Assembly (NCBI RefSeq): GCF_000973105.1
Contig: NC_015844.1
Location: 1,794,501-1,858,500 of the forward strand
Direction of reading: 5' to 3'
DNA length: 64,000 nucleotides
DNA from: Zobellia galactanivorans
GTDB taxonomy: Bacteria; Bacteroidota; Bacteroidia; Flavobacteriales; Flavobacteriaceae
Below are positions 4,894-64,000 of the stretch, piece after piece. The translations under genes were made by a program, and so were the position numbers. The notes beneath the pieces are model-generated. The model was not told the origin of the DNA, did not search any database, and saw only the letters and a program-made list of their open reading frames with translations. Numbering within the stretch: the stretch's first letter is position 1; every line of letters starts with the position of its first letter.

Positions 4894-6297
4894 ATGAAGA
4901 AATTTGCAATAAATAAATTCTTATTGGTAGCCATGCTTCCGCTCTTGCTACAATCCTGTTTTGTGGCAAAAAACTATGAGCGGCCGGCCGTCGAGACCGA
5001 AAACCTATATCGCACCGACCAGCTGCCACAAGACAGCGTGTCATTTGCTTCGATATCATATAAGGACCTTTTTACGGATTCGTATTTAAAGACCTATATC
5101 GAACGAGGTTTAGCGAACAACCTTGACATTCGTATTGCGCTGGAAAACATTTCGGCAGCCGAAGCTTATGTAAAACAAGGGAAGGCAGGTTACCTACCCA
5201 CCATTAACGGTGCCGCAAGCGCGACAAGAACGGCAAGAACCAGTGAAAACGGTCAGTTCGGAAGTATTTTTTCCCAACCCTATAATCAATTCGAGGCCTC
5301 GGGAACCCTATCTTGGGAAGCCGATATCTGGGGAAAGATAAGAAGCACCAAACGGGCAAGCGATGCCAGCTACCTACAGACCGTAGCGGCCCACCAAGCC
5401 GTTAAAACCAGTCTGGTGTCGCAAATTGCCACCACGTATTACCAATTGTTGGCCTTAGACAAGCAAGTTGCCGTAACCGTGGAGACCATTGAAAACCGTA
5501 TGAGAAGCTTGGAGACCATTACCGCCCTTAAAGAGGCAGGGCAGGCGAACCAAGTGGGTGTGGATCAAACGGCCGCACAATTGTACAGCGCCCAAAGCCA
5601 ACTGTTGGATCTTAAAAACTCGCTTTTTAAGACCGAGACGGCCTTGAGCATTCTTTTGGGAGAACAACCACAAACCTATGACCGCAGTTCATTGGACGAC
5701 CAAGAACTGACCAGCGATATGCAACTTGGGGTACCCGCCTTGTTGTTGCGCAACCGACCCGATATTATGCAGTCCGAATTCGGTTTGGTAAATAGTTTTG
5801 AGCTGACGAATGTGGCCAGAAGCAACTTCTATCCTTCCATTACCTTATCGGCGCAAGGAGGCTTTCAAAGTCTGGAAATCGATAATTGGATCGACAGCAG
5901 TTCTATTTTCGCCAACCTTATTGGTGGCCTTACACAGCCCATTTTGAACGGCCGAAAAGTCAGAACCGCCTACGAAGTGGCAAAGGCCCAGCAAGAACAA
6001 GCCCTTCTTAACTTTAAAAAGACCCTGCTTACCGCAGGTAAAGAAGTGTCGGATGCGCTATACGATTATAACACTGCCGTTGAAAAAGAAGCCTATGTTA
6101 CCAAACAGGTAGTGGCCCTCAAACGTGCGGAAAGCAATTCAGAAGAATTGTTGAACAGTGGATACCTGACCTATTTGGACCTGTTGACCGCAAGGGAAAA
6201 CTCCCTGAACGCGGAACTTAACTTGGTCAGCAACAAGTTGGCCCAATTATCCGCAACAGTAGAGCTATACCGTTCCCTAGGTGGTGGATGGCACTAA
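4894..6297 (+). CDS. Outer membrane efflux lipoprotein (TolC/OprM/NodT-type)
   Basis: This 467-residue protein forms the outer membrane exit duct of the RND pump. It has a lipoprotein signal (lipobox Cys22) and two repeated OEP domains rich in long helices, with the family motif LRNRPDIMQSE near the middle. An in-frame extension back to 4813 exists, but it lies inside the pump gene and would hide the signal peptide, so ATG 4894 is chosen. That start lies 8 bases after the pump stop, consistent with translational coupling in the three-gene pump operon. Confidence 0.92.
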   Translation: MKKFAINKFLLVAMLPLLLQSCFVAKNYERPAVETENLYRTDQLPQDSVSFASISYKDLFTDSYLKTYIERGLANNLDIRIALENISAAEAYVKQGKAGYLPTINGAASATRTARTSENGQFGSIFSQPYNQFEASGTLSWEADIWGKIRSTKRASDASYLQTVAAHQAVKTSLVSQIATTYYQLLALDKQVAVTVETIENRMRSLETITALKEAGQANQVGVDQTAAQLYSAQSQLLDLKNSLFKTETALSILLGEQPQTYDRSSLDDQELTSDMQLGVPALLLRNRPDIMQSEFGLVNSFELTNVARSNFYPSITLSAQGGFQSLEIDNWIDSSSIFANLIGGLTQPILNGRKVRTAYEVAKAQQEQALLNFKKTLLTAGKEVSDALYDYNTAVEKEAYVTKQVVALKRAESNSEELLNSGYLTYLDLLTARENSLNAELNLVSNKLAQLSATVELYRSLGGGWH

Positions 6298-6310
6298 AAT
6301 GTATTGACCC

Positions 6311-6919
6311 ATGTTCAATAAGGACCGCTTTTTAGAATTTGCCCTTTCCAAGTTTACAAAATTTGGAAGCAAGCGTTTTACCTTGGATGACCTGGCCCAT
6401 GAACTCGGTATCTCTAAAAAAACGATATACGAGAACTTTAAGGGCAAGGAAGAAATCATTCAAGAAAGTTTGGTAGCCCTTTTGAACAAATTAAGGTATC
6501 AAATAAACGAATGTGTAGAAAAGGAAAAATCCGACCCTATCCGAGCTGTAATAGCCATTTATAGGATAGGGTTGGATACCTTTAAATCTTTCAGTCCCAC
6601 CTTTTTAAGAAGTTTAAAAAAGTACTACCCCAATGTGTACCGTTTGTTCAACGATTTTCGTGAAAACGACGTTTCCGTTCTGGTGAAAGATCTACTTTTA
6701 AACGGACAGGGGAAAGGACAAATCAGAAAAGACGTCGATATAGACCTGACCTATGAACTTTATTACAATCGCATGGAATACATCGTGCATGCCGAAAACA
6801 AGAATTTCTACGAACAATTTACGCCCGAAGAGCTCTTGGACCACATCATAATCAACAACCTAAGAGGTATTGCCACAAAGGAATACCTCAACAAAAACGA
6901 CTCGATCTTTCTATTGTAA
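6311..6919 (+). CDS. TetR/AcrR-family transcriptional regulator
   Basis: This 202-residue protein has an N-terminal TetR helix-turn-helix (about 15-55, including LAHELGISKKTIYENFKGKEE) and a variable all-helical ligand/dimer domain. It starts only 14 bases after the outer membrane factor gene, so it is probably the last gene of the efflux operon. With the GbsR-type gene at the other end, the pump is bracketed by two unrelated regulators. The inducer is unknown. The gene ends 3 bases from the convergent CYTH gene, with no clear terminator between them. Confidence 0.88.
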   Translation: MFNKDRFLEFALSKFTKFGSKRFTLDDLAHELGISKKTIYENFKGKEEIIQESLVALLNKLRYQINECVEKEKSDPIRAVIAIYRIGLDTFKSFSPTFLRSLKKYYPNVYRLFNDFRENDVSVLVKDLLLNGQGKGQIRKDVDIDLTYELYYNRMEYIVHAENKNFYEQFTPEELLDHIIINNLRGIATKEYLNKNDSIFLL

Positions 6920-6921
6920 GC

Positions 6922-7389
6922 CTACCAAGATGTATAGGGGTTTTTACCCAGTTGCGAATTGTAGTATTTAACCTCACCTGTCACCTCTTGCCCTAACCAT
7001 TCGGGTTTTTCAAAGTCCTCGTCTTCAGAGGCCAATTCTATTTCGGCCACGACCAAGCCCTTATTATCACCATAAAATTCGTCTACCTCAAAAATATGTT
7101 GCCCCACGGGAACATTGTAGCGCACCTTATCGATAACCCCTGGTTCACAGATCGACAATAACCGTTCGGCATCCGGCACGGGAATTTCCTTTTCCCATTC
7201 AAATCGCATAGTTCCGGCCTCGTTCGATTTTCCCTTTACGGTCAAAAATGCCGAATCGGCCTTGATCCTCACTCTTACGGTACGCTCGGGATGCGTGTTC
7301 AAAAACCCCTGAACAATTCGTTCCTTCAATGTGGCCTGTCCTTGGTACGCCCTTGACGTGACCAAAAATTTACGTTCAATTTCAATCAC
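6922..7389 (-). CDS. CYTH-domain protein (triphosphate tunnel metalloenzyme family)
   Basis: This 155-residue protein begins with the family signature ExExK (E3, E5, K7 in MIEIERKFLV) and continues through the charged strands of an eight-stranded tunnel, including GLVVAEIELASEDE near the C-terminus. Short bacterial CYTH proteins usually hydrolyse inorganic tripolyphosphate, and some act as adenylate cyclases or thiamine triphosphatases; here the tripolyphosphatase role is only the default guess. Its start overlaps the end of the upstream SDR-like gene by 8 bases, so the two are cotranscribed. Confidence 0.85.
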   Translation of the reverse strand: MIEIERKFLVTSRAYQGQATLKERIVQGFLNTHPERTVRVRIKADSAFLTVKGKSNEAGTMRFEWEKEIPVPDAERLLSICEPGVIDKVRYNVPVGQHIFEVDEFYGDNKGLVVAEIELASEDEDFEKPEWLGQEVTGEVKYYNSQLGKNPYTSW

Positions 7390-52071: not shown

Positions 52072-53307
52072 ATGAAAAAACAGGAATTTTTTAGTCTGCC
52101 CTTCACCGCTGCGTATTTTGAAATTTTGATAGCGCAATTAAAAGAAACCTTTAAAAAAAAGCATGGTATAAAAGAGATACCGAAATCCATGCAATTCTAT
52201 GGGTATGGAAATTATGATCCTGAGAAGCCAAACCTTAAAGAAGACTTAGAACATATTGGAAGCGATTTTATCAATGGAAAGTATCTTTATGACAAAGTTA
52301 GGGACTTTAGAAAGGGAAAACCGATCATAAAAATCAACCAATATTACAAATCCGTTCTACTTTTATACTTAGGTTATGATTCCGTTGATAGTTTTCTTGA
52401 TGAAAACCGGCTAGAAGAATCAAAGGAAAAAAAACAGCTTGCCCTATTGTATGATGAACAGGCAAACAAAACTTTTTATTACATAAACTATTACTATGGG
52501 GAGGATGATGTTATCCTAAAAGGAGAAACCATTATATCCAACAACTGGAAAAAGATAAAGCATACCTATGTATACCCTCAAGAAGATGGAACGAATAAAG
52601 AGCATTACAATTTTGGAAATATAGTCCGGAGAGAAGACACCTTACACATTAATTCCAAAACCTTGTTAGACGGCAAATTGGTGGAGGGAGCCAGTGAAAT
52701 CTATTACATAGGGCATACCGACCCCTCTAACGTAAGGTATTTAATAGGCACCTACTGTACTTTTGACATCTACACAAATACCGTGGCAGGCCAATCGATT
52801 CTTGAACGATGTGATTCTAAGGAAGACATGGAGGAGCGGTCGAAAAACCCGACCATCCCCCCTTACATTGCCATGGAAGTCAGGAGCAAAAGAATTGTAA
52901 ACAAAAGCATAGTACCCAAGCACTTTCTTGAAATTTCCGAAGCTAGCCCATATGCATCAATTTACGAAAGCCTTGCGGGCTCCTATATGTTGACTTTCTA
53001 TTTTCCCAACGGATTTGAAGAAAAACTCTATTTTAAAATTTTGCCTACCAACTATAGAATGATTGTTCAAACAGAGAATGTCTATTTTGAAAAAGATAAT
53101 CTGGATTTACTCAATAAAGGTTCCGTAGTACATTTTAGTTTTAATTTTGCAGGTATTATAGCCTTTGACCATGTAGATATTTACTTTAAAACCTACTTCT
53201 TAAAAGACGACAGCGAAAGACATGATGGTGTTTTTAGCGGGATTGATAATGAAAATAGATTGGTCAACGGTTCCGTATCTATCGATTTCACCAAATCAGA
53301 ACACTAA
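52072..53307 (+). CDS. Unknown cytoplasmic protein, divergent from the TonB/NCS1 operon
   Basis: This 411-residue protein has no signal peptide or membrane helix and no family I recognise. The N-terminal third (about 1-120) is helical and basic, containing KIKINQYYKSVLLLYLGY-like sequence, and the rest is predicted beta-rich, with many Tyr and Phe. It is divergent from the TonB receptor gene with 120 bases between starts, the position often held by a regulator or sensor of the operon. That role is only inferred from place. Confidence 0.7.
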   Translation: MKKQEFFSLPFTAAYFEILIAQLKETFKKKHGIKEIPKSMQFYGYGNYDPEKPNLKEDLEHIGSDFINGKYLYDKVRDFRKGKPIIKINQYYKSVLLLYLGYDSVDSFLDENRLEESKEKKQLALLYDEQANKTFYYINYYYGEDDVILKGETIISNNWKKIKHTYVYPQEDGTNKEHYNFGNIVRREDTLHINSKTLLDGKLVEGASEIYYIGHTDPSNVRYLIGTYCTFDIYTNTVAGQSILERCDSKEDMEERSKNPTIPPYIAMEVRSKRIVNKSIVPKHFLEISEASPYASIYESLAGSYMLTFYFPNGFEEKLYFKILPTNYRMIVQTENVYFEKDNLDLLNKGSVVHFSFNFAGIIAFDHVDIYFKTYFLKDDSERHDGVFSGIDNENRLVNGSVSIDFTKSEH

Positions 53308-53395: not shown

Positions 53396-53449
53396 TTACA
53401 AATAGTGAAATTATATTGAATTTTGCATTTCAATATTTACTATTTGTAA
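53396..53449. promoter_or_regulatory. Inverted 11-bp operator pair before the phosphonate-type operon
   Basis: TTACAAATAGT (53396-53406) and its exact reverse complement ACTATTTGTAA (53439-53449) are separated by 32 bases, directly before the DUF5690 start at 53454. The same 11-mer occurs at 57366-57376 upstream of susC. Two of the copies extend to TTACAAATAGTnAAAT. They probably bind the XRE-cupin protein at 56674-57240. Confidence 0.6.
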
Positions 53450-53453
53450 ACTT

Positions 53454-54746
53454 TTGATAACTTTCAAGATACAATACAAAGACATACGATTTCTTGCCTA
53501 TGGTACCTTTGCTTCCTTTGGCACCTACTTCTGTATGTACGCATTTCGCAAACCGTTTACCGTTGCCACTTACGAGCAACTTTCTTTTATGGGTATCGAT
53601 TATAAAATCATTTTGATAATCACCCAGGTCTTAGGGTATATGCTTTCCAAATTCATTGGTATTAAGCTTATTTCCGAGCTTCGGGCGACCAAGAGACTGC
53701 CCTACCTTCTTCTCATGATATCCCTTGCCGAATTGAGTTTGGTTCTTTTCGGGCTGGCCCCTCCTCCTTATAACATTGTATTTATGTTTTTTAACGGTCT
53801 CTCATTAGGAATGATTTGGGGTATTGTTTTTTCATATCTGGAAGGAAGAAAATTTACAGAAATTTTGGGAGTTACCCTCTGCTCGAGTTTCATTGTTTCC
53901 AGTGGGGCCGTAAAATCATCGGGACTCTTATTGATGCGGGCCACGGGTGCTTCCGAAATTTGGATGCCGGCTTTGACCGGTGCCGTCTTTCTCATTCCCT
54001 TTTTAATCTTTGCCATAATGCTCGACCGTATTCCAAAACCTACGGAAGAAGATAAAATCTTGCGAAAAGAACGCAAGCCCATGAGTCGGGCCGACCGCAA
54101 AAAGGTGTTGTCGAACTTCTTCTTTCCTATCCTGATTCTTGTCCTTTTCTATATCAGCCTTACGGCCATACGCGATTTTCGCGATAATTTTTCACGAGAA
54201 ATATGGGACGCCGTCGGCTTTGAAGACAATGCCTCTATCTATACGCTTTCGGAGCTTCCGGTAGCAGTAATCGTACTATTGTCCATCGGACTCTTTGCTT
54301 TTGTAAAGAACAACTACCGCGCCTTTGTCACCTATCACTACCTACTAATTTTCGGCGCCTTATTAATTGGCATCAGTACATTTCTATTTCAAAACCAGGC
54401 CATAGGCCCTGTACTTTGGATGATTCTAATTGGCTTGGGACTGTACATCTGCTACGTCCCCTTCAATTGTATATTTTTTGACAGGATGATAGCCACGTTT
54501 AAGATCGAAGGTAATGCAGGATACCTCATCTATATAGCCGATGCCTTCGGATACCTAGGAAGCATGGCCGTTTTACTCTACAAGAATTTCGGCCAAGGTT
54601 CCGTCTCGTGGCTACAGTTCTTTAGCTATGGAACCTATGCCATAGCCTTTATCGGCCTTGTCGCGGCCACTTGCTCATTACTCTACTTCAAAAAAAAATA
54701 CAGACAGGAACAACAGACATTAAACAATGAACTACAGATAGTATGA
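53454..54746 (+). CDS. DUF5690-type MFS-like inner-membrane carrier
   Basis: This 430-residue protein has about twelve membrane helices. TM1 ends in MYAFRKPFTVATY, like the organophosphate carriers (GlpT/UhpT), in which an Arg here binds the phosphate of the substrate (R32 in this protein). It is assigned to DUF5690, a Bacteroidetes family I recall next to TIGR03364 oxidoreductases. The start is TTG: no other in-frame start precedes TM1. The stop overlaps the oxidoreductase start (ATGA). Likely role: import of a phosphonate-like anion (inference). Confidence 0.75.
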   Translation: MITFKIQYKDIRFLAYGTFASFGTYFCMYAFRKPFTVATYEQLSFMGIDYKIILIITQVLGYMLSKFIGIKLISELRATKRLPYLLLMISLAELSLVLFGLAPPPYNIVFMFFNGLSLGMIWGIVFSYLEGRKFTEILGVTLCSSFIVSSGAVKSSGLLLMRATGASEIWMPALTGAVFLIPFLIFAIMLDRIPKPTEEDKILRKERKPMSRADRKKVLSNFFFPILILVLFYISLTAIRDFRDNFSREIWDAVGFEDNASIYTLSELPVAVIVLLSIGLFAFVKNNYRAFVTYHYLLIFGALLIGISTFLFQNQAIGPVLWMILIGLGLYICYVPFNCIFFDRMIATFKIEGNAGYLIYIADAFGYLGSMAVLLYKNFGQGSVSWLQFFSYGTYAIAFIGLVAATCSLLYFKKKYRQEQQTLNNELQIV

Positions 54747-55912
54747 CCATGGAGAATAAATATGACCTGATCGTAGTTGGCGGAGGTATTCTAGGAACCT
54801 TTCATGCCTACCATGCCATAAAAAAAGGCCTTAAGGTGGCCTTGCTTGAAAAAGACGGAAAGCCCCAAGGCGCCACGGTACGGAATTTTGGCCAGGTAGT
54901 ACCCTCGGGCATGGACTCCAAATGGCAACTTTACGGACGCGAAAGCTTAGCCATTTACAAAAACATCCAATCGAAATTCGATATATCGGTCCGCCAGGAG
55001 GGCAGCGTCTATATAGCCTCCAACGAAGAAGAAACGCAACTCTTGCTCGAGCTTAACGCCATAAACCTTGCCAATGCATATCCTTCAAAATTGTTGACCC
55101 AAGGGGAATGCCTTGAAAAATATCCTGGGTTGCGTACGGACTACGTGAAAATGGGACTCTTTTTTCCCGAAGAGATAATGGTTGAACCCCGACTGATGAT
55201 AGGCAGACTCCAAGACTATCTTCGAGAATTAGGCCTGGAAATCTTTTTCAACAAAACGGTCATAGAGTGCAATGCCCTTACGAACTGGGTACAGGTACAC
55301 AGCACGGACAATACCACCCTTTCGGGCACCAAGGTCATTATTTGTAACGGTAGCGATTTTAAAAATTTATACCCGAACAGGTTTGCCGAAAGCGACCTTG
55401 TAGTATCAAAATTACAGATGATGCAGACCAAACCACAACCCAATTACAAATTACCCAGCTCCGTTCTAACCGGTCTTTCCATACGTCGTTACGAGGCTTT
55501 TTCAGAATGCCCCTCCTATTCGGCCATCAAGGCTAGGGAAAACCATGAATCCCTTGAAAGAAAATGGGGAGTACACATTCTTTTTAAGCAAGCTGCCGAT
55601 GGCTCCGTTATAATTGGCGATTCCCATGAATATGCACCGGCATCCCGCATAGAAGAATTGGGAATGGATTTGAATATGGACATTGATCACTTCATTCTTC
55701 AAGAAGCCAAAAAAATATTCGACCTTCCCACCTATAGAATCCAAAACCGTTGGTACGGTCTCTATTCCCAATGCAAATCGGCAGATATTTACCAACAGAC
55801 CATAGACCGAAACATCCATATCGTGACCGGCATAGGCGGTAAAGGCATGACCGGTAGTGCGGGATTTGCCAAAGAAAATATCAATTCAATATTCAATTTA
55901 CAAGATGCATAA
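54743..55912 (+). CDS. FAD-dependent oxidoreductase, TIGR03364 type (aminophosphonate-linked)
   Basis: This 389-residue DAO-fold enzyme has the FAD motif VVGGGILGTF (12-20) and ends with GIGGKGMTGSAGFAKE. The TIGR03364 group is known from gene neighbourhoods with phosphonatase-like HAD proteins and phosphonate transporters, and is proposed to oxidatively deaminate an aminophosphonate close to 2-aminoethylphosphonate. Here it lies between the DUF5690 carrier (4-base overlap) and the HAD gene (8-base overlap). The product would be a phosphonoaldehyde, the substrate class of the next enzyme. Confidence 0.82.
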   Translation: MTMENKYDLIVVGGGILGTFHAYHAIKKGLKVALLEKDGKPQGATVRNFGQVVPSGMDSKWQLYGRESLAIYKNIQSKFDISVRQEGSVYIASNEEETQLLLELNAINLANAYPSKLLTQGECLEKYPGLRTDYVKMGLFFPEEIMVEPRLMIGRLQDYLRELGLEIFFNKTVIECNALTNWVQVHSTDNTTLSGTKVIICNGSDFKNLYPNRFAESDLVVSKLQMMQTKPQPNYKLPSSVLTGLSIRRYEAFSECPSYSAIKARENHESLERKWGVHILFKQAADGSVIIGDSHEYAPASRIEELGMDLNMDIDHFILQEAKKIFDLPTYRIQNRWYGLYSQCKSADIYQQTIDRNIHIVTGIGGKGMTGSAGFAKENINSIFNLQDA

Positions 55913-56582
55913 CATAGAATTAGCAGTATTTGACATGGCCGGTACGGTCGTTAACGAAGACAACATCGTCTACAAGACCCTACAAAAAGCCATTAACAAA
56001 ACAGGACATGAACTAACACTAGATTTTGTTCTGGAACATGGTGCCGGAAAGGAAAAACACCAGGCCATAAAAGATATTTTACAAGCCATTGGCAATCTAC
56101 CAAACCAAGCCTCAGAACCTATTTTTTTAGATTTTAAGCACTTGTTAGACGAAGCCTACGGTGAATTAAAGGTGACTTCCTTTGAAGGTGTGGAAGAGGT
56201 ATTGGCCACACTAAAAGCCCAAGGCATCAAAATAGCCCTTAATACGGGTTACAACAAAACAATAGCCGAGCTGTTGTTACAAAAAATGAACTGGGTCAAG
56301 GGAGAGCAATACGACGCACTTGTTACGGCGGACGATGTTTTGGAAGGACGCCCGAACCCTGCTATGATCAGTAAAGCCATGGAAATTCTAGAAGTAAGCG
56401 ATGCCAATAAAGTGTTGAAGGCCGGCGATTCGATCATTGATATCGAAGAAGGCAAAAACGCAAACTGTGGGGTTACGGTCGGTGTTACCACCGGTGCCCA
56501 TACCGCTGCACAATTAAAATCCGCTGAACCTACTTATGTCTTACATTCTCTTGTGGAACTCACCGATTATATAAAAGGTTGA
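55905..56582 (+). CDS. Phosphonatase-like HAD hydrolase (TIGR03351 type)
   Basis: This 225-residue protein has HAD nucleophile D10 in VFDMAGT. Position +2 is Ala, as in phosphonoacetaldehyde hydrolase (DxAGT), not the Asp of ordinary HAD phosphatases. The cap helix carries GAGKEKHQAI, with K49 and K51 as candidates for a Schiff-base lysine. It likely cleaves the C-P bond of an aldehyde from the preceding oxidoreductase. An upstream start at 55857 lies inside the oxidoreductase gene; ATG 55905 is preferred. A terminator follows. Confidence 0.82.
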   Translation: MHNIELAVFDMAGTVVNEDNIVYKTLQKAINKTGHELTLDFVLEHGAGKEKHQAIKDILQAIGNLPNQASEPIFLDFKHLLDEAYGELKVTSFEGVEEVLATLKAQGIKIALNTGYNKTIAELLLQKMNWVKGEQYDALVTADDVLEGRPNPAMISKAMEILEVSDANKVLKAGDSIIDIEEGKNANCGVTVGVTTGAHTAAQLKSAEPTYVLHSLVELTDYIKG

Positions 56583-56613
56583 GTTGCTACCGTAGCGGTA
56601 TAGGGCTACAACG

Positions 56614-56655
56614 AACGATTCGTTCCAGGAAACCTGGGAACGGATCGTTTTGTTT
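56614..56655 (+). terminator. Terminator between the HAD gene and the convergent regulator gene
   Basis: AACGATTCGTTCCAGG (56614-56629) pairs with CCTGGGAACGGATCGTT (56633-56649) with one bulge and one wobble, then a TTTTGTTT run. Confidence 0.7.
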
Positions 56656-56673
56656 ATACGAGGGTTTTGATTT

Positions 56674-57240
56674 CTATATAAAGAAATAAACCACCAACAT
56701 CTTGGTCGGCGCATCACTTCGATTGACAGGAACATGCGGAATACGACCATCAAAGAAAATGGAATCGCCGTCTTTCAACAATACCTCTTCTTCGTCAATT
56801 ATATAATAGCACTCCCCACTGAGCATATATTTGAACTCATAGGCGTCCGTAGTTACCTTTTCCCTTTCCGAATTGGGCTGCACTTCCAACAAGACAGTTT
56901 CAAACCCTAATGATGAAAGTTGTTTTCCGAAGATATAGGTATAGTTAAAACCAACGGCATTAGCTTCCTTTTCTATACTGGAATTATCCTCTTTACGGGA
57001 AACGATAAATTTGGCGCCGTTTACCTTGGCCATGCCGTTGAAAAAGTCGGTAACCTCAACTTCAAGTGAATTGATAATTTTCAACAGCACAGGTAACGAC
57101 GGAATGGTACGCCCGTTTTCTATACGCGAAATCAAACCACCGGTCACTTCGGCAACACGCGCAATATCGCTAATGGTCTTATTGTTCTCCTTTCGTATTT
57201 CCTTAATTCGTTTTCCTATACCAATAAGGTAGTCTTCCAT
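56674..57240 (-). CDS. XRE-family regulator with cupin sensing domain
   Basis: This 188-residue protein has an N-terminal XRE helix-turn-helix (about 10-63, with ISDIARVAEVTGGLISRIENG) and a C-terminal cupin (about 110-182, ending HVPVNRSDAPTKMLVVYFF). Cupin domains of such regulators bind small metabolites. It lies between the phosphonate-type operon and susC, on the minus strand, and the TTACAAATAGT motif occurs on both sides. It is therefore the likely regulator of both units, an unusual controller for a SusCD pair. Confidence 0.9.
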   Translation of the reverse strand: MEDYLIGIGKRIKEIRKENNKTISDIARVAEVTGGLISRIENGRTIPSLPVLLKIINSLEVEVTDFFNGMAKVNGAKFIVSRKEDNSSIEKEANAVGFNYTYIFGKQLSSLGFETVLLEVQPNSEREKVTTDAYEFKYMLSGECYYIIDEEEVLLKDGDSIFFDGRIPHVPVNRSDAPTKMLVVYFFI

Positions 57241-57257
57241 ATCTAAAACTTAATATA

Positions 57258-57265
57258 CAAACATA
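57258..57265 (-). promoter_or_regulatory. -7 box of the XRE-cupin gene
   Basis: On the minus strand TATGTTTG fits TAnnTTTG, 18 bases before the ATG at 57240. Confidence 0.45.
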
Positions 57266-57304
57266 CTATTAAATGATTTTATGACACCTAAACACACAAA
57301 ATAG

Positions 57305-57399
57305 GATAACATTTTTAGGTGATAAAATTCCAAATTTTTAGTCATAATTACAAAATGTTTATTTGACTATTTGTAAATAACATTAAGATAACATTTTTA
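57305..57399. repeat. Direct 13-bp repeat in the susC upstream region
   Basis: GATAACATTTTTA occurs at 57305-57317 and at 57387-57399. The two copies flank the operator-like sequence at 57348-57376. Confidence 0.6.
57348..57376. promoter_or_regulatory. Operator-like inverted repeat upstream of susC
   Basis: TTACAAAATGT (57348-57358, 9 of 11 match) and ACTATTTGTAA (57366-57376, exact) form the same inverted arrangement as before the DUF5690 gene, with a 7-base gap. It lies about 140 bases before the susC start and about 125 from the XRE-cupin start. Confidence 0.55.
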
Positions 57400-57513
57400 T
57401 AATAACACCTACGAAAATCTTGCAATAACTTAATATTTAAAGACATTTCGCTTAACCTGTTCATTAGATATTTGTTGCGTAATAATTAACCAAAGTTTAC
57501 AAATACGAAAAAA

Positions 57514-60500
57514 ATGAAAAGAACAGTTCTTTTAGCCTTATTCACTTTAATGGTCAGTATGGCCGTCCGTTCACAGACGAATTTTACGGGAACGGTACTC
57601 GACGAAAACAACATGCCCCTTCCGGGCGCTTCTTTGGTTATCAAGGGAAGCGCTACCGGTGTAGCCGCTGATTTTGACGGTAATTTCAGCATAGAGCTAC
57701 CTCAAGGGAATGAAATTCTTGTAGTATCGTATCTCGGATACATCCCCTCCGAATTCAACACCTCCGGAAAAACAACGGCAACCATCGTTTTACAACCCAA
57801 CTCAGAACAATTGGACGAGGTTGTAGTTACCGCCTTAGGAATTAAAAGAGAAGCAAAAAAACTGGCCTATTCGGTACAAAAGGTTTCCGGGGACGATCTT
57901 TCCGAAGCAAAGGAAACCAATGTAGTCAACTCTTTGTCGGGTAAATTGGCCGGTGTACAGGTTACTGGCGGTAATTCCGGTGTAGGTTCTTCTTCGCAAA
58001 TAATTATTCGCGGCGAAAGTTCCCTGAACCCAAGTCCCAATGCAAATTCACCTTTATTCGTAGTTGATGGCATCCCCATCAACAACAGCGTCAACAGCCG
58101 GGGAAGCGAAAACAATATGGAAGTAGATTACGGAAATGGCGCACAGGATATCAACCCCGACGACATCGAGACCATGAATGTACTGAAAGGGCCAAGTGCT
58201 ACCGCCCTTTACGGTTCAAGGGGAGCGAACGGGGTTATACTGATCACTACAAAATCGGGCAAGAATAAAAAAGGACTAGGCGTATCATATACCAACAATA
58301 CCACTTTTGAATCTATTTTAACATTTCCTGAATACCAATACGAATACGGCCAAGGCTCCAATGGTCAGTTCGCTTTTGGAGACGGCGGTCAAAACCGCTC
58401 TATTACCGGAGGTGTAAACGACCATGTTGATGAAAGCTGGGGTCCCGCCCTTAACGGGCAATTGATCGCACAGCACGACAGCCCGACTACCAGCGGACTC
58501 CTTGCCGGAGACGTACATGTACGCCCGCGAAATGCCGATGGCACTTTTTCAGATGAAATTATCGCTACACCCTTTTTATCAAGACCGGGCAATATCAAAA
58601 GCTTCTTTGAAACCGGCCATACGATAAGCAATAACATTGCCCTAACGGGCGGTAACGAATTCGGTAATTTTAGATTGTCATTTACAGACTTAAAGAGCGA
58701 AGGCATAGTTCCCAACACAGATTACAATAGACGTTCTTATGCCCTTAACGGATCCTACCAACTTGCAGAATGGTTTAAGATTTCGGGCTCCATGAACTAT
58801 ATAAACAGTAACTCCGGCAATAGACCCGTAAATTCCTATGGTACGGAAAACATAATGTACCTCTGGGTTTGGTTCGGACAACAGGTAGACATGAACTCGC
58901 TTCGAAACTACTGGCAACCGGGCTTAGAGGGGGTACAACAATACAATTACAACTACAACTACCATGACAACCCGTATTTTAATGTCTATGAAAACACCAA
59001 TAGTTTTGATAAAGATCGTGTAATTACCAACATGCGCGCAGACATCAAATTGGCCAAAGGTTTAGATTTTATGTTCCGAACCGGGTTCGACTATGCAGAC
59101 GAAGTCGATATGCGAAAAAGAGCTTATTCAACACAGCGCTTTCCTAAAGGCCAATACAGGGAAGATTATATCTATTCGTTTGAGCAGAACACGGATTTTT
59201 TACTTGGGTACAACACTACCTTCCACGAAGATTTCGACCTCGCGGTTTCATTTGGGGGCAACAACCGGACTTTTAAGAGTAGCTACCAACGTATAACCGC
59301 CAACTCGCTGTCTATTCCCGGCATATACAACTTTGGGAACACTGCAGAACCACTCACTTCTAGCGACTATGACGATAAAAAAGAAGTAAACAGCTTATAT
59401 GCCTTCGCAAATTTAGGTTTCAAAGACTATCTCTTTTTAGACGTAACGGGCAGAAACGACTGGTCTTCTACGCTTCCACTCGAGAACAGCAGTTATTTTT
59501 ATCCATCGGCCGGGCTTAGCCTTATTCTTTCGGATATGTTCAACCTTCCTCAAAGCGTTTCCTTTGCAAAATTAAGAGCTGGATGGGCAAGTGTCGGCAA
59601 TGATACCGACCCTTACAATTTATTGCCCACCTACGGATTTGGAACTACCTTCAATGGTTTTTCAAGGGTAAACTCACCATCGGAATTAAAGTTGCCCGAA
59701 TTGAAACCCGAAAGAACCAATTCTTTCGAAATAGGAACGGACCTCAGGTTTTTTGGTAGTCGCTTAGGCCTAGACATTGCGGTATATAGATCCATAACGG
59801 AAAACCAGATCATTTCCCTTCCCGTTTCCAATACCTCAGGGTATAACCAAAGGGTAATCAACGCCGGTAAAGTGCAAAATGAAGGTCTTGAGATCACCGT
59901 GAACGCCACTCCGGTCAAAACCAAAAACTTTGCATGGAACACAAATATCAACTTCACTTCGAACAGGGGTGAAATTTCGGAACTTACCGATGGCCTTGAT
60001 TTTTATCAAATCAAGGAAAACTACCTTATTGTAGGTGCGGAAGTAGGAGAGAAAATGGGTGACTTATATGGTACCGGTTTTGTTGAAGTAACCGATGCCA
60101 ACAGCCCACATTTTGGCCAATGGATCATCAATCAAGATACCGGGCTCCCTTCAAGGGACAGTGAGCTTAGAAACCTAGGCAATTACAATCCTGATTTTAT
60201 GGTCGGACTTCAAAATAGCTTCCGCTACAAGAACCTTAATTTAGGTGTGCTCTTCGACTGGAGGCAAGGTGGTGTTTACCATTCAAGAACGGTCTCCATT
60301 GGCGGCACTACAGGCCTCTTGGATTTTACAACAGAAGGAAGGGAAAGCGGTATTGTTGCCGAAGGGGTTATAAATACAGGAACGGAAGAAAACCCTGTAT
60401 ACGTAGAAAACACCATAAATGTACCAGCTTCTAGTTACTACGCTACAGTATATAACCGAAGTAACGAAGAAACCACAATGTACGATGCTACTTATGTGAA

Positions 60501-60732
60501 ACTTAGAGAAGTCAAGTTGGGCTATAACTTCCCTAAAAAACTATTTGACCGATCGCCTATTACATCGGCCAGTATCTCTTTCGTTGGCCGTAATCTAGCC
60601 TTATGGACGGAAAACCCCCATGTCGACCCGGAAACCATCTCTTTTTCAGGAGGCACCGTAGTTCCCGGGGTAGAAGATATGGCATTGCCTAGCACAAGAA
60701 GCTATGGTATTAATTTGAACATTGAGTTCTAA
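57514..60732 (+). CDS. SusC/RagA-type TonB-linked outer membrane protein
   Basis: This 1072-residue protein has a signal peptide (about 1-21), a CarboxypepD-like domain (about 22-105), a TonB-type plug (about 115-235, after the LDEVVVTALGIKREAK signature of SusC proteins) and a large barrel ending YGINLNIEF. It forms the TonB-driven outer membrane transporter of a SusCD complex with the SusD gene 29 bases downstream. The cargo is unknown. The context suggests a phosphorus-containing ester or glycan rather than a simple sugar. It is divergent from the XRE-cupin gene. Confidence 0.95.
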   Translation: MKRTVLLALFTLMVSMAVRSQTNFTGTVLDENNMPLPGASLVIKGSATGVAADFDGNFSIELPQGNEILVVSYLGYIPSEFNTSGKTTATIVLQPNSEQLDEVVVTALGIKREAKKLAYSVQKVSGDDLSEAKETNVVNSLSGKLAGVQVTGGNSGVGSSSQIIIRGESSLNPSPNANSPLFVVDGIPINNSVNSRGSENNMEVDYGNGAQDINPDDIETMNVLKGPSATALYGSRGANGVILITTKSGKNKKGLGVSYTNNTTFESILTFPEYQYEYGQGSNGQFAFGDGGQNRSITGGVNDHVDESWGPALNGQLIAQHDSPTTSGLLAGDVHVRPRNADGTFSDEIIATPFLSRPGNIKSFFETGHTISNNIALTGGNEFGNFRLSFTDLKSEGIVPNTDYNRRSYALNGSYQLAEWFKISGSMNYINSNSGNRPVNSYGTENIMYLWVWFGQQVDMNSLRNYWQPGLEGVQQYNYNYNYHDNPYFNVYENTNSFDKDRVITNMRADIKLAKGLDFMFRTGFDYADEVDMRKRAYSTQRFPKGQYREDYIYSFEQNTDFLLGYNTTFHEDFDLAVSFGGNNRTFKSSYQRITANSLSIPGIYNFGNTAEPLTSSDYDDKKEVNSLYAFANLGFKDYLFLDVTGRNDWSSTLPLENSSYFYPSAGLSLILSDMFNLPQSVSFAKLRAGWASVGNDTDPYNLLPTYGFGTTFNGFSRVNSPSELKLPELKPERTNSFEIGTDLRFFGSRLGLDIAVYRSITENQIISLPVSNTSGYNQRVINAGKVQNEGLEITVNATPVKTKNFAWNTNINFTSNRGEISELTDGLDFYQIKENYLIVGAEVGEKMGDLYGTGFVEVTDANSPHFGQWIINQDTGLPSRDSELRNLGNYNPDFMVGLQNSFRYKNLNLGVLFDWRQGGVYHSRTVSIGGTTGLLDFTTEGRESGIVAEGVINTGTEENPVYVENTINVPASSYYATVYNRSNEETTMYDATYVKLREVKLGYNFPKKLFDRSPITSASISFVGRNLALWTENPHVDPETISFSGGTVVPGVEDMALPSTRSYGINLNIEF

Positions 60733-60761
60733 ATAGAATTAATCAACACAATAAATTCAAG

Positions 60762-62207
60762 ATGAAAACATCAAAAATAATAGCGATAATTTTTATCACG
60801 GGGTTAAACCTACTTGGTTGTACCGATGATTTTGAAGAAATAAACTCAAACCCCAACGCCCCTGAGGCAGTAAGCGCAAATCTGCTTACGGCTACGGCTA
60901 CTTCTGAAATAGTACGTACCTTGACCCAAGAAGGGTATTCTGACGGAAACACCATTACCCAGCTCATGGCAAAAAACAACTTTCCAGGTTTTGGCCAATT
61001 TGAATGGGGAGATCAAGGACTGTGGAACTTCTTTTATCAGATTTTACCGGAGGTGAACGATATTTTGGAAATATCGAGGACAGAAGGCACTAAGAACAGT
61101 ACCTATGAAGGTATAGCCTTATCGTTAAGGGCACTTTGCTTTGCCAATTTAACGGATCTTTATAACAACGTTCCATATACGGAAGCCCTTGTAGGTAAAT
61201 CCGAGGGTGTTTTTACCCCCAAATATGATGACCAAGAAACTATTTACAATGGTATACTTGCTGATTTAGCCGAAGCCGATGCGGTTTTGTCCAAAGGTCA
61301 ACCCATAACCGGAGCTACCGGCGATGTGATATACGATGGGGATGCCTCCAAATGGAGAAAACTGGCAAATTCCCTGCGATTGCGTTACTTATTGCGCATC
61401 TCCAAACAAAGGGATGTATCCGCAGAAATGCAGGCCATTGTTAACGACGGCAACTACATTACCACAAACGACGACAACGCGACCCTTACCTTTAGCGGCA
61501 CCTCGAATACAGATTCCTGGCCCGAAAGCACAGGACGTATCGGTGGTTTTGACGAAAAAAGTTTGTGTACTACAGGGCTGGAATATCTGACCCGTTTCAA
61601 CGACCCTAGATTGGATATTTGGTTTGACCGCAATAGCAATGGCGAGTATGTTGGCATACCCATTGGACTGAACCAAGATAATGCCAGGGCTTACGATGAT
61701 GCAAATAGCCCTAGCCGATTGGATGTTGAATTGTTCTACTTCTCCAGAACCGAAGCCGAGGCTTTCGTTATAAAAAGCTCCGAGGTTTATTTTATTTTGG
61801 CCGAAGCAGCGGAAAGAGGGTTCATTTCAGGTGATGCCGAAACATTTTATAATGAAGGCATCCGACAAAGTATGAAATACTGGGGCGTAACCGATGATGC
61901 CGTAATCGATACTTATTTGGCCCAACCTTCCGTAGCATACAATGGAAGCGTAGAATTGCTAATGACCCAAAAAACACTGGCCCTATGGAACGTCGATTAC
62001 CAAGGTTGGTTCGATTATAGAAGAACTGGTCTACCTGCACTCGAGGCCGGACCTGACAACGAGAACCAAGGTCGTTACCCTGTTCGATTTTTATATCCTT
62101 CTAGCGAACAAACACTCAACGGGGTCAATTACAAAGCTGCAGTTGAAAGCATCGGTGGAGATAACATTAATTCCAAAGGATGGTGGGAAACCGGAAGCCG
62201 CTATTAA
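60762..62207 (+). CDS. SusD/RagB-family outer membrane lipoprotein
   Basis: This 481-residue protein has a lipoprotein signal with Cys20 (LNLLGC), then the SusD_2-type N-terminal region starting DDFEEINSNPNAPEAVSANLL, helical TPR-like repeats and the C-terminal part ending in NINSKGWWETGSRY. It is the surface lid and binding partner of the SusC barrel and sits directly after it. No sugar-specific clues can be read. The following gene starts after an 82-base gap with an imperfect hairpin. Confidence 0.95.
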   Translation: MKTSKIIAIIFITGLNLLGCTDDFEEINSNPNAPEAVSANLLTATATSEIVRTLTQEGYSDGNTITQLMAKNNFPGFGQFEWGDQGLWNFFYQILPEVNDILEISRTEGTKNSTYEGIALSLRALCFANLTDLYNNVPYTEALVGKSEGVFTPKYDDQETIYNGILADLAEADAVLSKGQPITGATGDVIYDGDASKWRKLANSLRLRYLLRISKQRDVSAEMQAIVNDGNYITTNDDNATLTFSGTSNTDSWPESTGRIGGFDEKSLCTTGLEYLTRFNDPRLDIWFDRNSNGEYVGIPIGLNQDNARAYDDANSPSRLDVELFYFSRTEAEAFVIKSSEVYFILAEAAERGFISGDAETFYNEGIRQSMKYWGVTDDAVIDTYLAQPSVAYNGSVELLMTQKTLALWNVDYQGWFDYRRTGLPALEAGPDNENQGRYPVRFLYPSSEQTLNGVNYKAAVESIGGDNINSKGWWETGSRY

Positions 62208-62225
62208 AACATTTATTGTAAAAAC

Positions 62226-62262
62226 AGGGGGTGCCTCGGCTTGCAATCGGGGCAACCCTCCT
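62226..62262 (+). terminator. Imperfect hairpin between susD-like and phosphodiesterase genes
   Basis: AGGGGGTGCC (62226-62234 region) can pair with GGCAACCCTCCT (62251-62262) with a bulge. Weak T run; may reduce read-through into the enzyme gene or mark mRNA processing. Confidence 0.4.
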
Positions 62263-62289
62263 TGTTGATTTTAATCTTACACCCAAAAA

Positions 62290-63936
62290 ATGAAACTACT
62301 AAAATCGCTTATTCGTGTTTTAACGCTCTGTGGAATATGTTCCCACTACGCAACGGCACAAGAAGCACCAAACCTCGGCATCGAACACGTAGTGGTCATA
62401 GGTTTTGACGGACTGAGTCCAGACGGACTGCAAAATGCACATACCCCGACTTTTGATAAACTCATGCAAGAAGGCGCCTATTCCTTGCATGCCAGGGCAG
62501 TGCTTCCTACGAGTTCAAGTTCCAACTGGGCCTCAATGATCATGGGTGCCGGCCCCGAACAACACGGTATTACCTCCAACGCTTGGGAACGCGATAATTT
62601 TACCCTTTCGGCGGTAACACAAAGCGAAGAGTTTATCTTTCCGACCATTTTTCAATTGACCCACGACCAAATAGCCTCCGCTGAAATAGGAAGCATTTAT
62701 CATTGGGGCGGTTTTGGAAGGTTGTTCGAGAAAAGTGCGGTTGATTATGACGTGAACCCGGAAACGGAAGACGAAACGGCTGTTTTGGCCAGCGCCTACA
62801 TTAAAAGTAAAAAACCAAAACTGACCTTCATCCATTTTGACCATGTAGACCATGCGGGTCACGAATTTGGCCATGGCACACCGCACTATTACGAATCGGT
62901 CGAAAAGGCCGATGCCCTTTTGAAACAAGTCATCACGGCCATAAAACAGGCCGATTTAGCGGATAAAACCTTGGTCATCGTAAGTGCCGACCACGGAGGC
63001 TTGGGGAAAGGCCACGGAGGCGAATCGCTCAAAGAAATCGAAATTCCGTTTATCGTTTGGGGAAAAGGGGTGAAGCAAAACCATAAAATCACCCATCCGG
63101 TATACCAATACGACAACGCTGCCACGGTAGCCTTTGCCCTCGGAATCAAAACTCCACATGCATGGATAGGAAAACCTATTATATCGGCCTTTCAAGGTCA
63201 TGAAATAAAAGATGGCTATACCGTTCTTGAGCAGTTCAAGGAACCTCTTATTTCCCCTAAGGCGGAAGGCTATAAAAAAGCGGGCGGAGTTTTCGTCGAA
63301 AAGGCTTCCCTGAAAATCGAAAACCCCAATGTAACGGGAGTGATCCGGTATACGCTTGACGGTTCATTGCCCACAAAAACTTCCAAATCTTACGAAAAGA
63401 CTATCCCGCTAACCCAAAATACGGTAGTAAAAAGTGCGATGTTCAGAGGTGGAAAAATTAATAGTCCGGTAGCAGAGGCCTTTTTCAGAATACAACCCAA
63501 AACCCTATCAAAACCCGTAAAATACGAGCTTTTTTACATGGACAAGCTTTTGTTTTTACCTGCCTTGGGCGAAAAAAAACCAAATGCAACGGGCAACACC
63601 TTCGAAATAACCTCAGATGAAATAAAAGACAAGGTCAAGAGCAATACCGTAGTAAGGTTCACCTCGTATATCCAGGTGAAAGAAAACAGCAATTATAGGT
63701 TCTACCTTCGCTCAGATGATGGAAGCCAACTCTTTATTGACAACCAACTGATAGTGGATAATGATGGGGATCATGGTGTCAAGACGAAAGATGGCCAAAT
63801 CAACCTAAAACCAGGCAAGCACGCCATTAAAGTACTTTGGTTCAATGGTGGGGGCGATGGTTGGTTGGATGTTTTTGTAGAAGAAGGCGATGCTGCCAAA
63901 CAAATACTTACCCCTCCCTTATTAACCACCGATTAA
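62290..63936 (+). CDS. Secreted NPP-type phosphodiesterase/phosphatase with chitobiase-like and PA14 domains
   Basis: This 548-residue protein has a signal peptide (about 1-24, ending ATAQ). The alkaline phosphatase superfamily core (about 30-310) has metal-binding D40 in VIGFDGLSPDG, a Ser nucleophile (probably S76 in PTSSSSNWASM, where NPP enzymes carry Thr), HFDHVDHAGHEFGH and SADHGGLGKGHGG. A chitobiase C-terminal-like domain (about 325-400, TLDGSLPTKTSKSY) and a PA14 domain (about 405-540, SDDGSQLFIDNQLIVDND) follow. It should cleave phosphodiesters or phosphonate esters on or near the surface. Confidence 0.85.
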   Translation: MKLLKSLIRVLTLCGICSHYATAQEAPNLGIEHVVVIGFDGLSPDGLQNAHTPTFDKLMQEGAYSLHARAVLPTSSSSNWASMIMGAGPEQHGITSNAWERDNFTLSAVTQSEEFIFPTIFQLTHDQIASAEIGSIYHWGGFGRLFEKSAVDYDVNPETEDETAVLASAYIKSKKPKLTFIHFDHVDHAGHEFGHGTPHYYESVEKADALLKQVITAIKQADLADKTLVIVSADHGGLGKGHGGESLKEIEIPFIVWGKGVKQNHKITHPVYQYDNAATVAFALGIKTPHAWIGKPIISAFQGHEIKDGYTVLEQFKEPLISPKAEGYKKAGGVFVEKASLKIENPNVTGVIRYTLDGSLPTKTSKSYEKTIPLTQNTVVKSAMFRGGKINSPVAEAFFRIQPKTLSKPVKYELFYMDKLLFLPALGEKKPNATGNTFEITSDEIKDKVKSNTVVRFTSYIQVKENSNYRFYLRSDDGSQLFIDNQLIVDNDGDHGVKTKDGQINLKPGKHAIKVLWFNGGGDGWLDVFVEEGDAAKQILTPPLLTTD

Positions 63937-64000
63937 ATGAAGTTTCTCAATTTTTGTTTTATAACACTGTTTTCGCTGGGTACTACAGTTTGTGCCCAGC
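63937..64000 (+). CDS. Start of a secreted protein (truncated by window end)
   Basis: ATG 63937 directly follows the stop codon of the phosphodiesterase gene (TAAATG). The visible 21 codons encode a signal peptide (MKFLNFCFITLFSLG then TTVCAQ). The gene belongs to the same operon, and its product is not identifiable from this fragment. Confidence 0.75.
   Translation, partial: MKFLNFCFITLFSLGTTVCAQ

Follow-up and report, generated by a model that had tools for sequence, protein, structure and literature searches.

Gene content and layout of the locus

The DNA analysed (hereafter the window) comprises 64,000 bases of the Zobellia galactanivorans genome, C1:1794501–1858500 of a closed sequence of 5,521,712 bases. 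Near its 3' end, and running on past it, lies a candidate aminophosphonate utilisation locus in which genes for a DUF5690 membrane protein, a TIGR03364 FAD oxidoreductase and a phosphonatase-like HAD protein are followed by a regulator gene on the opposite strand and by a SusC/SusD (SusCD) pair with secreted phosphoesterases. The genes were as follows, all in window numbering, the last four reaching or lying past the window end.

53454–54746, forward strand: DUF5690 (PF18943), predicted inner-membrane permease, TTG start; PF18943 at 572.7 bits (cut-off 25)
54743–55912, forward strand: TIGR03364 FAD oxidoreductase (PbfD family); TIGR03364 at 411.3 bits (cut-off 285.1)
55905–56582, forward strand: TIGR03351 phosphonatase-like HAD protein, ATG start with M1 at 55905; TIGR03351 at 234.5 bits (cut-off 218.9)
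56674–57240, reverse strand: XRE-family helix-turn-helix and cupin regulator (XRE-cupin), between the catabolic and SusCD operons; Pfam and NCBIfam profile matches
57514–60732, forward strand: SusC/RagA TonB-linked outer-membrane transporter; TIGR04056 at 663.2 bits (cut-off 368.25)
60762–62207, forward strand: SusD-like surface lipoprotein; SusD-like_2 (PF12771) at 341.4 bits (cut-off 27), LLGC lipobox read by eye
62290–63936, forward strand: secreted NPP-type phosphodiesterase; Phosphodiest at 111.3 bits (cut-off 23), plus CHB_HEX_C_1 and PA14
63937–65208: secreted metallo-beta-lactamase (MBL)-fold protein; Lactamase_B just under cut-off, signal peptide read by eye
65174–66553: reading frame of PbfA; NF049939 at 726.7 bits (cut-off 525)
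66567–68162: secreted purple-acid-phosphatase (PAP)-like metallophosphatase; signal peptide read by eye
68159–69241: second secreted NPP-like protein; signal peptide read by eye

No internal stops were found in the seven window open reading frames (ORFs) from DUF5690 to the phosphodiesterase. The DUF5690 and TIGR03364 genes overlap by exactly 4 bases and the TIGR03364 and HAD genes by exactly 8. The ORFs thus confirmed the gene set, positions and both overlaps given in an earlier sequence-only reading of the window, with the families over their curated cut-offs; the XRE-cupin gene and the four genes downstream of the phosphodiesterase gene (MBL to second NPP-like) were absent from that reading. 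The gap between susC and susD is 29 bases and that between susD and the phosphodiesterase gene 82 bases; from the phosphodiesterase onward the genes abut or overlap, save for 13 bases before the PAP-like gene. The genes from susC through the second NPP-like gene most likely form a single transcript. The pbfA reading frame overlaps the MBL gene and lies inside this susCD gene run.

Recurrence of the gene set

The Zobellia genome carries at least 57 SusC genes (56 scored among 136 candidates, with the SusC of this locus not among them), so a nearby SusC in a single genome is unremarkable and recurrence carries the claim. Neighbourhoods were compared in three sets: 23 loci, being all genomes with an over-cut-off TIGR03351 protein among 299 sampled from the family; the best 80 of 494 named relatives, a set biased toward near relatives and toward Flavobacterium and Allomuricauda, in which 69 loci are flanked by 8 kb or more of sequence on each side; and 20 of the 32 genomes with over-cut-off TIGR03364 among 395 sampled phylum-wide, all 20 from other families and one cut by a contig end. 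Neighbouring genes were labelled by blastp with the proteins of the Zobellia locus as references, some of the matches being at 24–35% identity. Zobellia uliginosa was the nearest named relative among the best 80 (oxidoreductase identity 97%).

In the 23 family loci, DUF5690 was found near TIGR03351 in all 23, TIGR03364 and XRE-cupin in 22 each, and SusC together with SusD in 14. Among the 80 named loci, DUF5690 and PbfD were adjacent in 78, as were PbfD and the HAD gene, and XRE-cupin was present in 78; the exact order HAD-XRE-SusC-SusD occurred in 35, and SusCD lay upstream in 11. The 69 well-covered named loci included 46 with SusC and SusD, 40 with SusC, SusD, the phosphodiesterase and PbfA, and 16 with another TonB receptor instead. 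In the 20 loci of other Bacteroidota families, DUF5690 and the HAD gene were each near in 15 and SusC with SusD in 13; the gene order mostly differed. The gene set therefore recurs in related genomes, the lack of which the sequence-only reading had named as a ground for refutation. On a 125-kb plasmid of Hymenobacter sp. NBH84 (L199), genes for SusC, SusD, a sulfatase-like protein, an alkaline-phosphatase-family protein, a HAD hydrolase, an XRE regulator and TIGR03364 are consecutive; this plasmid carriage hints at horizontal spread.

Two loci (L044 and L074, Ulvibacterium metagenome-assembled genome) retained the core and PbfA, with no SusC recognised and SusD present as a 128-amino-acid piece; they are perhaps cases of a decaying outer-membrane module. 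Upstream of the Zobellia locus, a 411-amino-acid protein encoded at window 52072–53307 had no Pfam or NCBIfam match, and blastp at 1e-5 found no counterpart next to any of the remaining 22 family loci.

Predicted aminophosphonate conversion by the TIGR03364 protein and PbfA

The available part of PMC10590968 describes PbfD1 of Acinetobacter baumannii as annotated TIGR03364. The PbfD enzymes PbfD1 and PbfD2 convert N-methyl-aminoethylphosphonate to phosphonoacetaldehyde and act likewise, less efficiently, on aminoethylphosphonate; no reaction was recorded there with the non-phosphonate analogues assayed (PMC10590968). Aligned with A. baumannii homologues, the window TIGR03364 protein was 35% identical, the alignment covering 96% of its length. 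On a lake Acinetobacter plasmid, a TIGR03364 gene lies between an aminoethylphosphonate ATP-binding cassette (ABC) transporter and phnW with a phosphonoacetaldehyde hydrolase gene. The window protein would thus be predicted from homology to oxidise aminoethylphosphonate or its N-methyl form to phosphonoacetaldehyde, in keeping with the proposal of the sequence-only reading that the oxidoreductase makes the aldehyde.

PbfA is a characterised enzyme with phosphonoacetaldehyde as its product, according to the parts available of PMC8154272 and PMC12366243. The PbfA of this locus was the sole PbfA over cut-off in the Zobellia genome. Since TIGR03364 and PbfA both lead to phosphonoacetaldehyde, two independent enzyme families link the locus to aminophosphonates, and its role in aminophosphonate catabolism is considered very likely.

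Variants of this module were observed in relatives. In the distant locus L177, PbfD and PbfA stand beside a phosphonoacetaldehyde-dehydrogenase-like gene (protein 5806–7260; 634.0 bits, cut-off 635.65). Loci L033 and L046 have an additional XRE-cupin gene together with an alcohol dehydrogenase resembling TIGR03366 (326.6 and 321.0 bits against a cut-off of 328.1), possibly another phosphonate branch; directly 3' of the TIGR03366-like gene in L033 lies the gene of a 202-amino-acid protein with no Pfam or NCBIfam match.

The HAD protein as a candidate phosphonatase

A profile of 23 HAD relatives compared with the PDB placed PhnX chains at the top (80.7 bits), the best non-phosphonatase reaching 50.6 bits. 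Foldseek searches with the model of the HAD protein (predicted local distance difference test, pLDDT, 90.8) returned PhnX at ranks 1–3. Conservation was assessed in an alignment of 116 rows (101 Flavobacteriaceae-type loci and 15 from other families; 11 duplicates, 105 distinct). Residues D10, A12, G13, T14, K51, T114, G115, R149, D175 and D179 were kept in 116 of 116 rows, and the DxAGT and GRP motifs and the lysine were present in all rows save for one G of GRP. In the control HADs (four usable full-length ORFs of eight), D and K replace the A and R of the family motifs. The features typical of PhnX, namely the cap lysine, the DxAGT nucleophile loop and an arginine in place of the HAD lysine, are therefore present. 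By alignment, D10 was assigned as the nucleophile and K51 as the Schiff-base lysine; R149, D175 and D179 also count among the catalytic residues.

Three MAFFT modes and two profile (hidden Markov model) alignments placed K51 on the lysine of the canonical PhnX MG-x-E-K motif. PDB titles for PhnX mention the mutant K53R and an intermediate reduced with borohydride, in agreement with the aligned lysine forming the Schiff base. K49, kept in 101 of 101 Flavobacteriaceae-type rows versus 0 of 15 others, was dropped as a candidate for this role when aligning canonical PhnX shifted the assignment to K51.

In profile searches of the Zobellia genome, PhnX, PhnW and PhnA had no over-cut-off hit and PhnJ had no match, which leaves the HAD protein as the obvious outlet for phosphonoacetaldehyde. 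Likewise, neither PhnX nor PhnW was over cut-off in any of the 23 family genomes carrying an over-cut-off TIGR03351 protein. In other families, TIGR03351 relatives scored 174.7–211.8 bits in 6 of 6 tested, under the 218.9 cut-off, yet nearer to TIGR03351 than to PhnX. The kept phosphonatase residues support the suggestion of the sequence-only reading that this enzyme cleaves the C-P bond, and the protein is probably a phosphonoacetaldehyde hydrolase.

The predicted DUF5690 carrier and the secreted phosphoesterases

In the absence of a PDB sequence match, the fold of DUF5690 was assessed on its AlphaFold model (pLDDT 88). The model has a major facilitator superfamily (MFS) fold, and its six best Foldseek matches were to the glucose-6-phosphate transporter SLC37A4/G6PT (E 5e-8 to 2e-7), with other MFS proteins close behind from 2e-7 on and GlpT at rank 18. 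SLC37A4/G6PT is an organophosphate:phosphate antiporter. DUF5690 also contains a Y-x-x-R-K-x-F-like stretch with invariant R32 and K33, which resembles the antiporter motif. The fold and top matches back the idea, already put forward for this carrier, that it is a permease. It is probably organophosphate:phosphate-antiporter-like; this subfamily is graded as probable and not as proven because PDB sequence searches gave nothing.

The window phosphodiesterase falls in the NPP superfamily and bears PA14 and chitobiase-C-terminal-like domains. The secreted MBL protein had the pneumococcal phosphorylcholine esterase Pce/CbpE as its top PDB match (E 1e-5 as a single sequence, 9e-7 as a profile), a weak match confined to two short stretches, with ComEC-type MBL domains next (E 0.006–0.03); it is without choline-binding repeats in the Pfam scan. 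Aminoethylphosphonate is a near-isostere of phosphoethanolamine, and a Pce-like esterase would therefore fit the freeing of a phosphono head group.

Shared operator-like sites

Three operator-like sites were located at the locus.

53436–53450, forward strand: dyad TTTAC-TATTT-GTAAA before DUF5690, with the core word TATTTGTAAA at 53441–53450
57368–57377, forward strand: TATTTGTAAA between the XRE and SusC genes, forming a pair with the site below at a spacing of 128 bases
57496–57505, reverse strand: the other operator-like word of the pair, 8 bases ahead of the SusC start

The exact word occurred three times in the 64-kb window versus 0.41 expected, all three within the locus, and 0 of 100 shuffles reached three. 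The word was selected from the regions upstream of DUF5690 and SusC in the named loci, where it was found before the cluster SusC in 32 of 38 regions and before DUF5690 in 43 of 71, compared with 19 of 326 before unlabelled genes; some of these controls have a divergent promoter in common with cluster genes, an effect that would inflate the control figure. Since DUF5690 and SusC regions were the source of the word, the independent set of regions before the TonB receptor provides a fair test, and there it was present in 18 of 19 regions, all from two genera. When one region was taken per genus group, the counts were 12 of 16 versus 0 of 22 for SusC and 13 of 22 versus 0 of 22 for DUF5690. All 24 exact pairs of facing sites before SusC had a spacing of 126–129 bases (128 bases in 18), and the exact site-pair pattern occurred once in the 5.52-Mb genome. 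The position of its gene suggests the XRE-cupin protein as the binder of these putative operators. In many loci one word lies 5–10 bases ahead of the SusC start codon, a position at which it would overlap the region of translation initiation.

Proposed route and alternative explanations

On the directly observed gene content, recurrence, residue conservation and common sites, the following route may be proposed, in which all activities, the transport direction, the form in which the substrate is bound and the regulator's identity are predictions. SusC and SusD would take a phosphonate-bearing molecule across the outer membrane, and the secreted phosphoesterases (NPP-type, Pce-like MBL and PAP-like) would release an aminophosphonate, which DUF5690 would import in the manner of an organophosphate:phosphate antiporter. 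PbfD (TIGR03364) would oxidise aminoethylphosphonate or its N-methyl form to phosphonoacetaldehyde, and PbfA would form the same product from (R)-1-hydroxy-aminoethylphosphonate. The TIGR03351 HAD protein, replacing PhnX, would then split the C-P bond through a Schiff base on K51 to yield acetaldehyde and phosphate, with no need for PhnW. The XRE-cupin protein may control both operons from the common TTTAC-N5-GTAAA-like sites. As a whole, this model of an aminophosphonate locus resembling a phosphate utilisation system (PUS), with SusCD and a PhnW-free route, is considered likely; that the head groups are freed from a polymer or lipid is plausible, at roughly even chances. A similar chain of uptake, release, import, oxidation and C-P cleavage had been suggested from the window alone, and it gained partial support, strongly in its catabolic half through PbfA in the gene run, the biochemistry of PbfD1, the HAD residues and the recurrence.

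Several observations weigh against the model. The HAD protein scored 108.3 bits with the PhnX profile TIGR01422 (cut-off 220) and is therefore not classed as canonical PhnX, and generic HAD phosphatases followed PhnX closely in Foldseek E-value. One profile-to-PDB alignment puts K49, not K51, on the PhnX lysine, a register doubt of two residues. The TIGR03351 family is described as lacking the lysine, which the alignments contradict. Distant PhnW matches occurred in 3 of the 23 family genomes (103–163 bits, cut-off 400.8), and the DUF5690 profile had no match among PDB sequences at E ≤ 1. In one of the 23 family loci (L036) a different FAD oxidase takes the place of TIGR03364, and 7 of the 69 named loci have neither SusC with SusD nor a TonB receptor by the labels used. 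In the 20 other-family loci, the HAD gene was absent from five (L177, L185, L189, L190 and L194), DUF5690 from five (L177, L190, L192, L194 and L195, the last truncated at a contig end) and SusC with SusD from seven; L177, without HAD and DUF5690, perhaps represents a PhnY-type outlet in Bacteroidota. For SusC, 4 of 16 genus groups had no exact operator-like word ahead of the gene (six regions, including all three from Flavobacterium), and before DUF5690 the word was found in under half of the regions for 9 of 22 genus groups.

As a sub-case of the model, with which it shares part of its probability, the SusCD cargo could be free aminophosphonate while the phosphoesterases act on other organophosphates. 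The core and a receptor without the phosphodiesterase and PbfA, as found in five SusCD loci and six TonB-receptor loci of the 69, would suit this view; however, four of these five SusCD loci, when looked at, carry a second NPP-like gene, a gene labelled as phosphodiesterase was present in 55 of the 69 (label down to 24% identity), and SusCD pairs usually take oligomers. The sub-case is judged rather unlikely.

Alternatively, the SusCD locus could scavenge phosphodiesters in the manner of a PUS, with head groups of the lipid or teichoic-acid type (phosphoethanolamine or phosphocholine, for example) as its substrates, and lie by chance next to an aminophosphonate operon that works independently of it. 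The secreted enzymes do have general phosphoesterase folds, with a phosphorylcholine esterase as the top match of the MBL protein, and PUS loci for phosphodiesters are known from the available part of PMC8115612. However, pbfA lies within the susCD run, overlapping the MBL gene, so that catabolic and uptake genes would most likely share a transcript; the same rare word stands at both operons; and the linkage held across many genera and in other gene orders. That the two work apart in this way is regarded as improbable.

It seems very improbable that the HAD protein is an ordinary phosphatase of the phosphoglycolate or sugar phosphate type, with the aldehyde handled elsewhere: its score under the PhnX cut-off, the close generic Foldseek matches and its absence from five distant loci would allow this, but the conserved DxAGT, GRP and lysine from which the four usable controls differ, its adjacency to PbfD in 78 of the 80 named loci and the lack of over-cut-off hits for PhnX, PhnW and PhnA in Zobellia, and for PhnX and PhnW in the 23 TIGR03351 genomes, argue against it.

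Beyond the Zobellia locus, the aminophosphonate model can be extended to a SusCD-coupled system, present in different Bacteroidota families, that strips aminophosphonate head groups from a glycan or lipid extracytoplasmically and mineralises them without PhnW and PhnX. In it TIGR03351 would be a second phosphonatase family and DUF5690 a dedicated permease, with a dedicated XRE-cupin operator and an exchangeable receptor on a constant core. This extended form appears to us evenly balanced between true and false.

Relation to known systems

The PusCD phosphate utilisation systems of Flavobacterium, as described in the available part of PMC8115612, combine SusCD with phosphodiesterase and phosphomonoesterase genes, and the Zobellia locus does likewise by family. 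Induction by phosphate depletion is the defining feature of PusCD systems; the Zobellia locus is known here from its genes and, unlike PusCD, has an XRE-cupin gene and a common operator-like word that point to local control. The claim of the sequence-only reading that no SusCD locus for phosphonates had been described is weakened by one sentence of this 2020 paper, in which Flavobacterium SusCD (PusCD) complexes are said to co-localise with phosphonate-degrading enzymes (PMC8115612). The parts covered of its main text contain the word phosphonate twice, the second time for an affinity column, and name no phosphonate genes. In a literature search that had most subscription papers outside it, no description was found of a TIGR03351 protein, of DUF5690 or of a SusCD locus worked out for phosphonates.

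In the hydrolytic PbfD/PbfA/PhnX pathway, as far as PMC10590968 and PMC8154272 were available, a TIGR03364 oxidase and PbfA lead to phosphonoacetaldehyde, as they would here. In contrast to that pathway, of which the Acinetobacter plasmid operon is the usual form, the Zobellia locus has a TIGR03351 HAD protein for PhnX, no PhnW, DUF5690 for the ABC transporter and an added SusCD module. It shares with polysaccharide utilisation loci a single gene run of SusC, SusD and secreted hydrolases; however, no glycoside hydrolase or lyase catalytic domains were found among the Pfam matches of the locus proteins, which places it, without carbohydrate-active catalytic domains, outside the usual definition of such loci. 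The locus is a combination of known kinds, a PUS and the Pbf pathway, and not a new kind.

Phosphonates are a large marine phosphorus pool, and how Bacteroidota, prominent degraders of particles and polymers, gain access to them is little described. The locus offers testable roles for three unassigned families, the TIGR03351 HAD proteins, DUF5690 and the secreted MBL esterase. According to the present analysis, a search limited to PhnW and PhnX may overlook phosphonate users in Bacteroidota, and SusCD systems may extend past glycans to phosphonate-bearing polymers or lipids.

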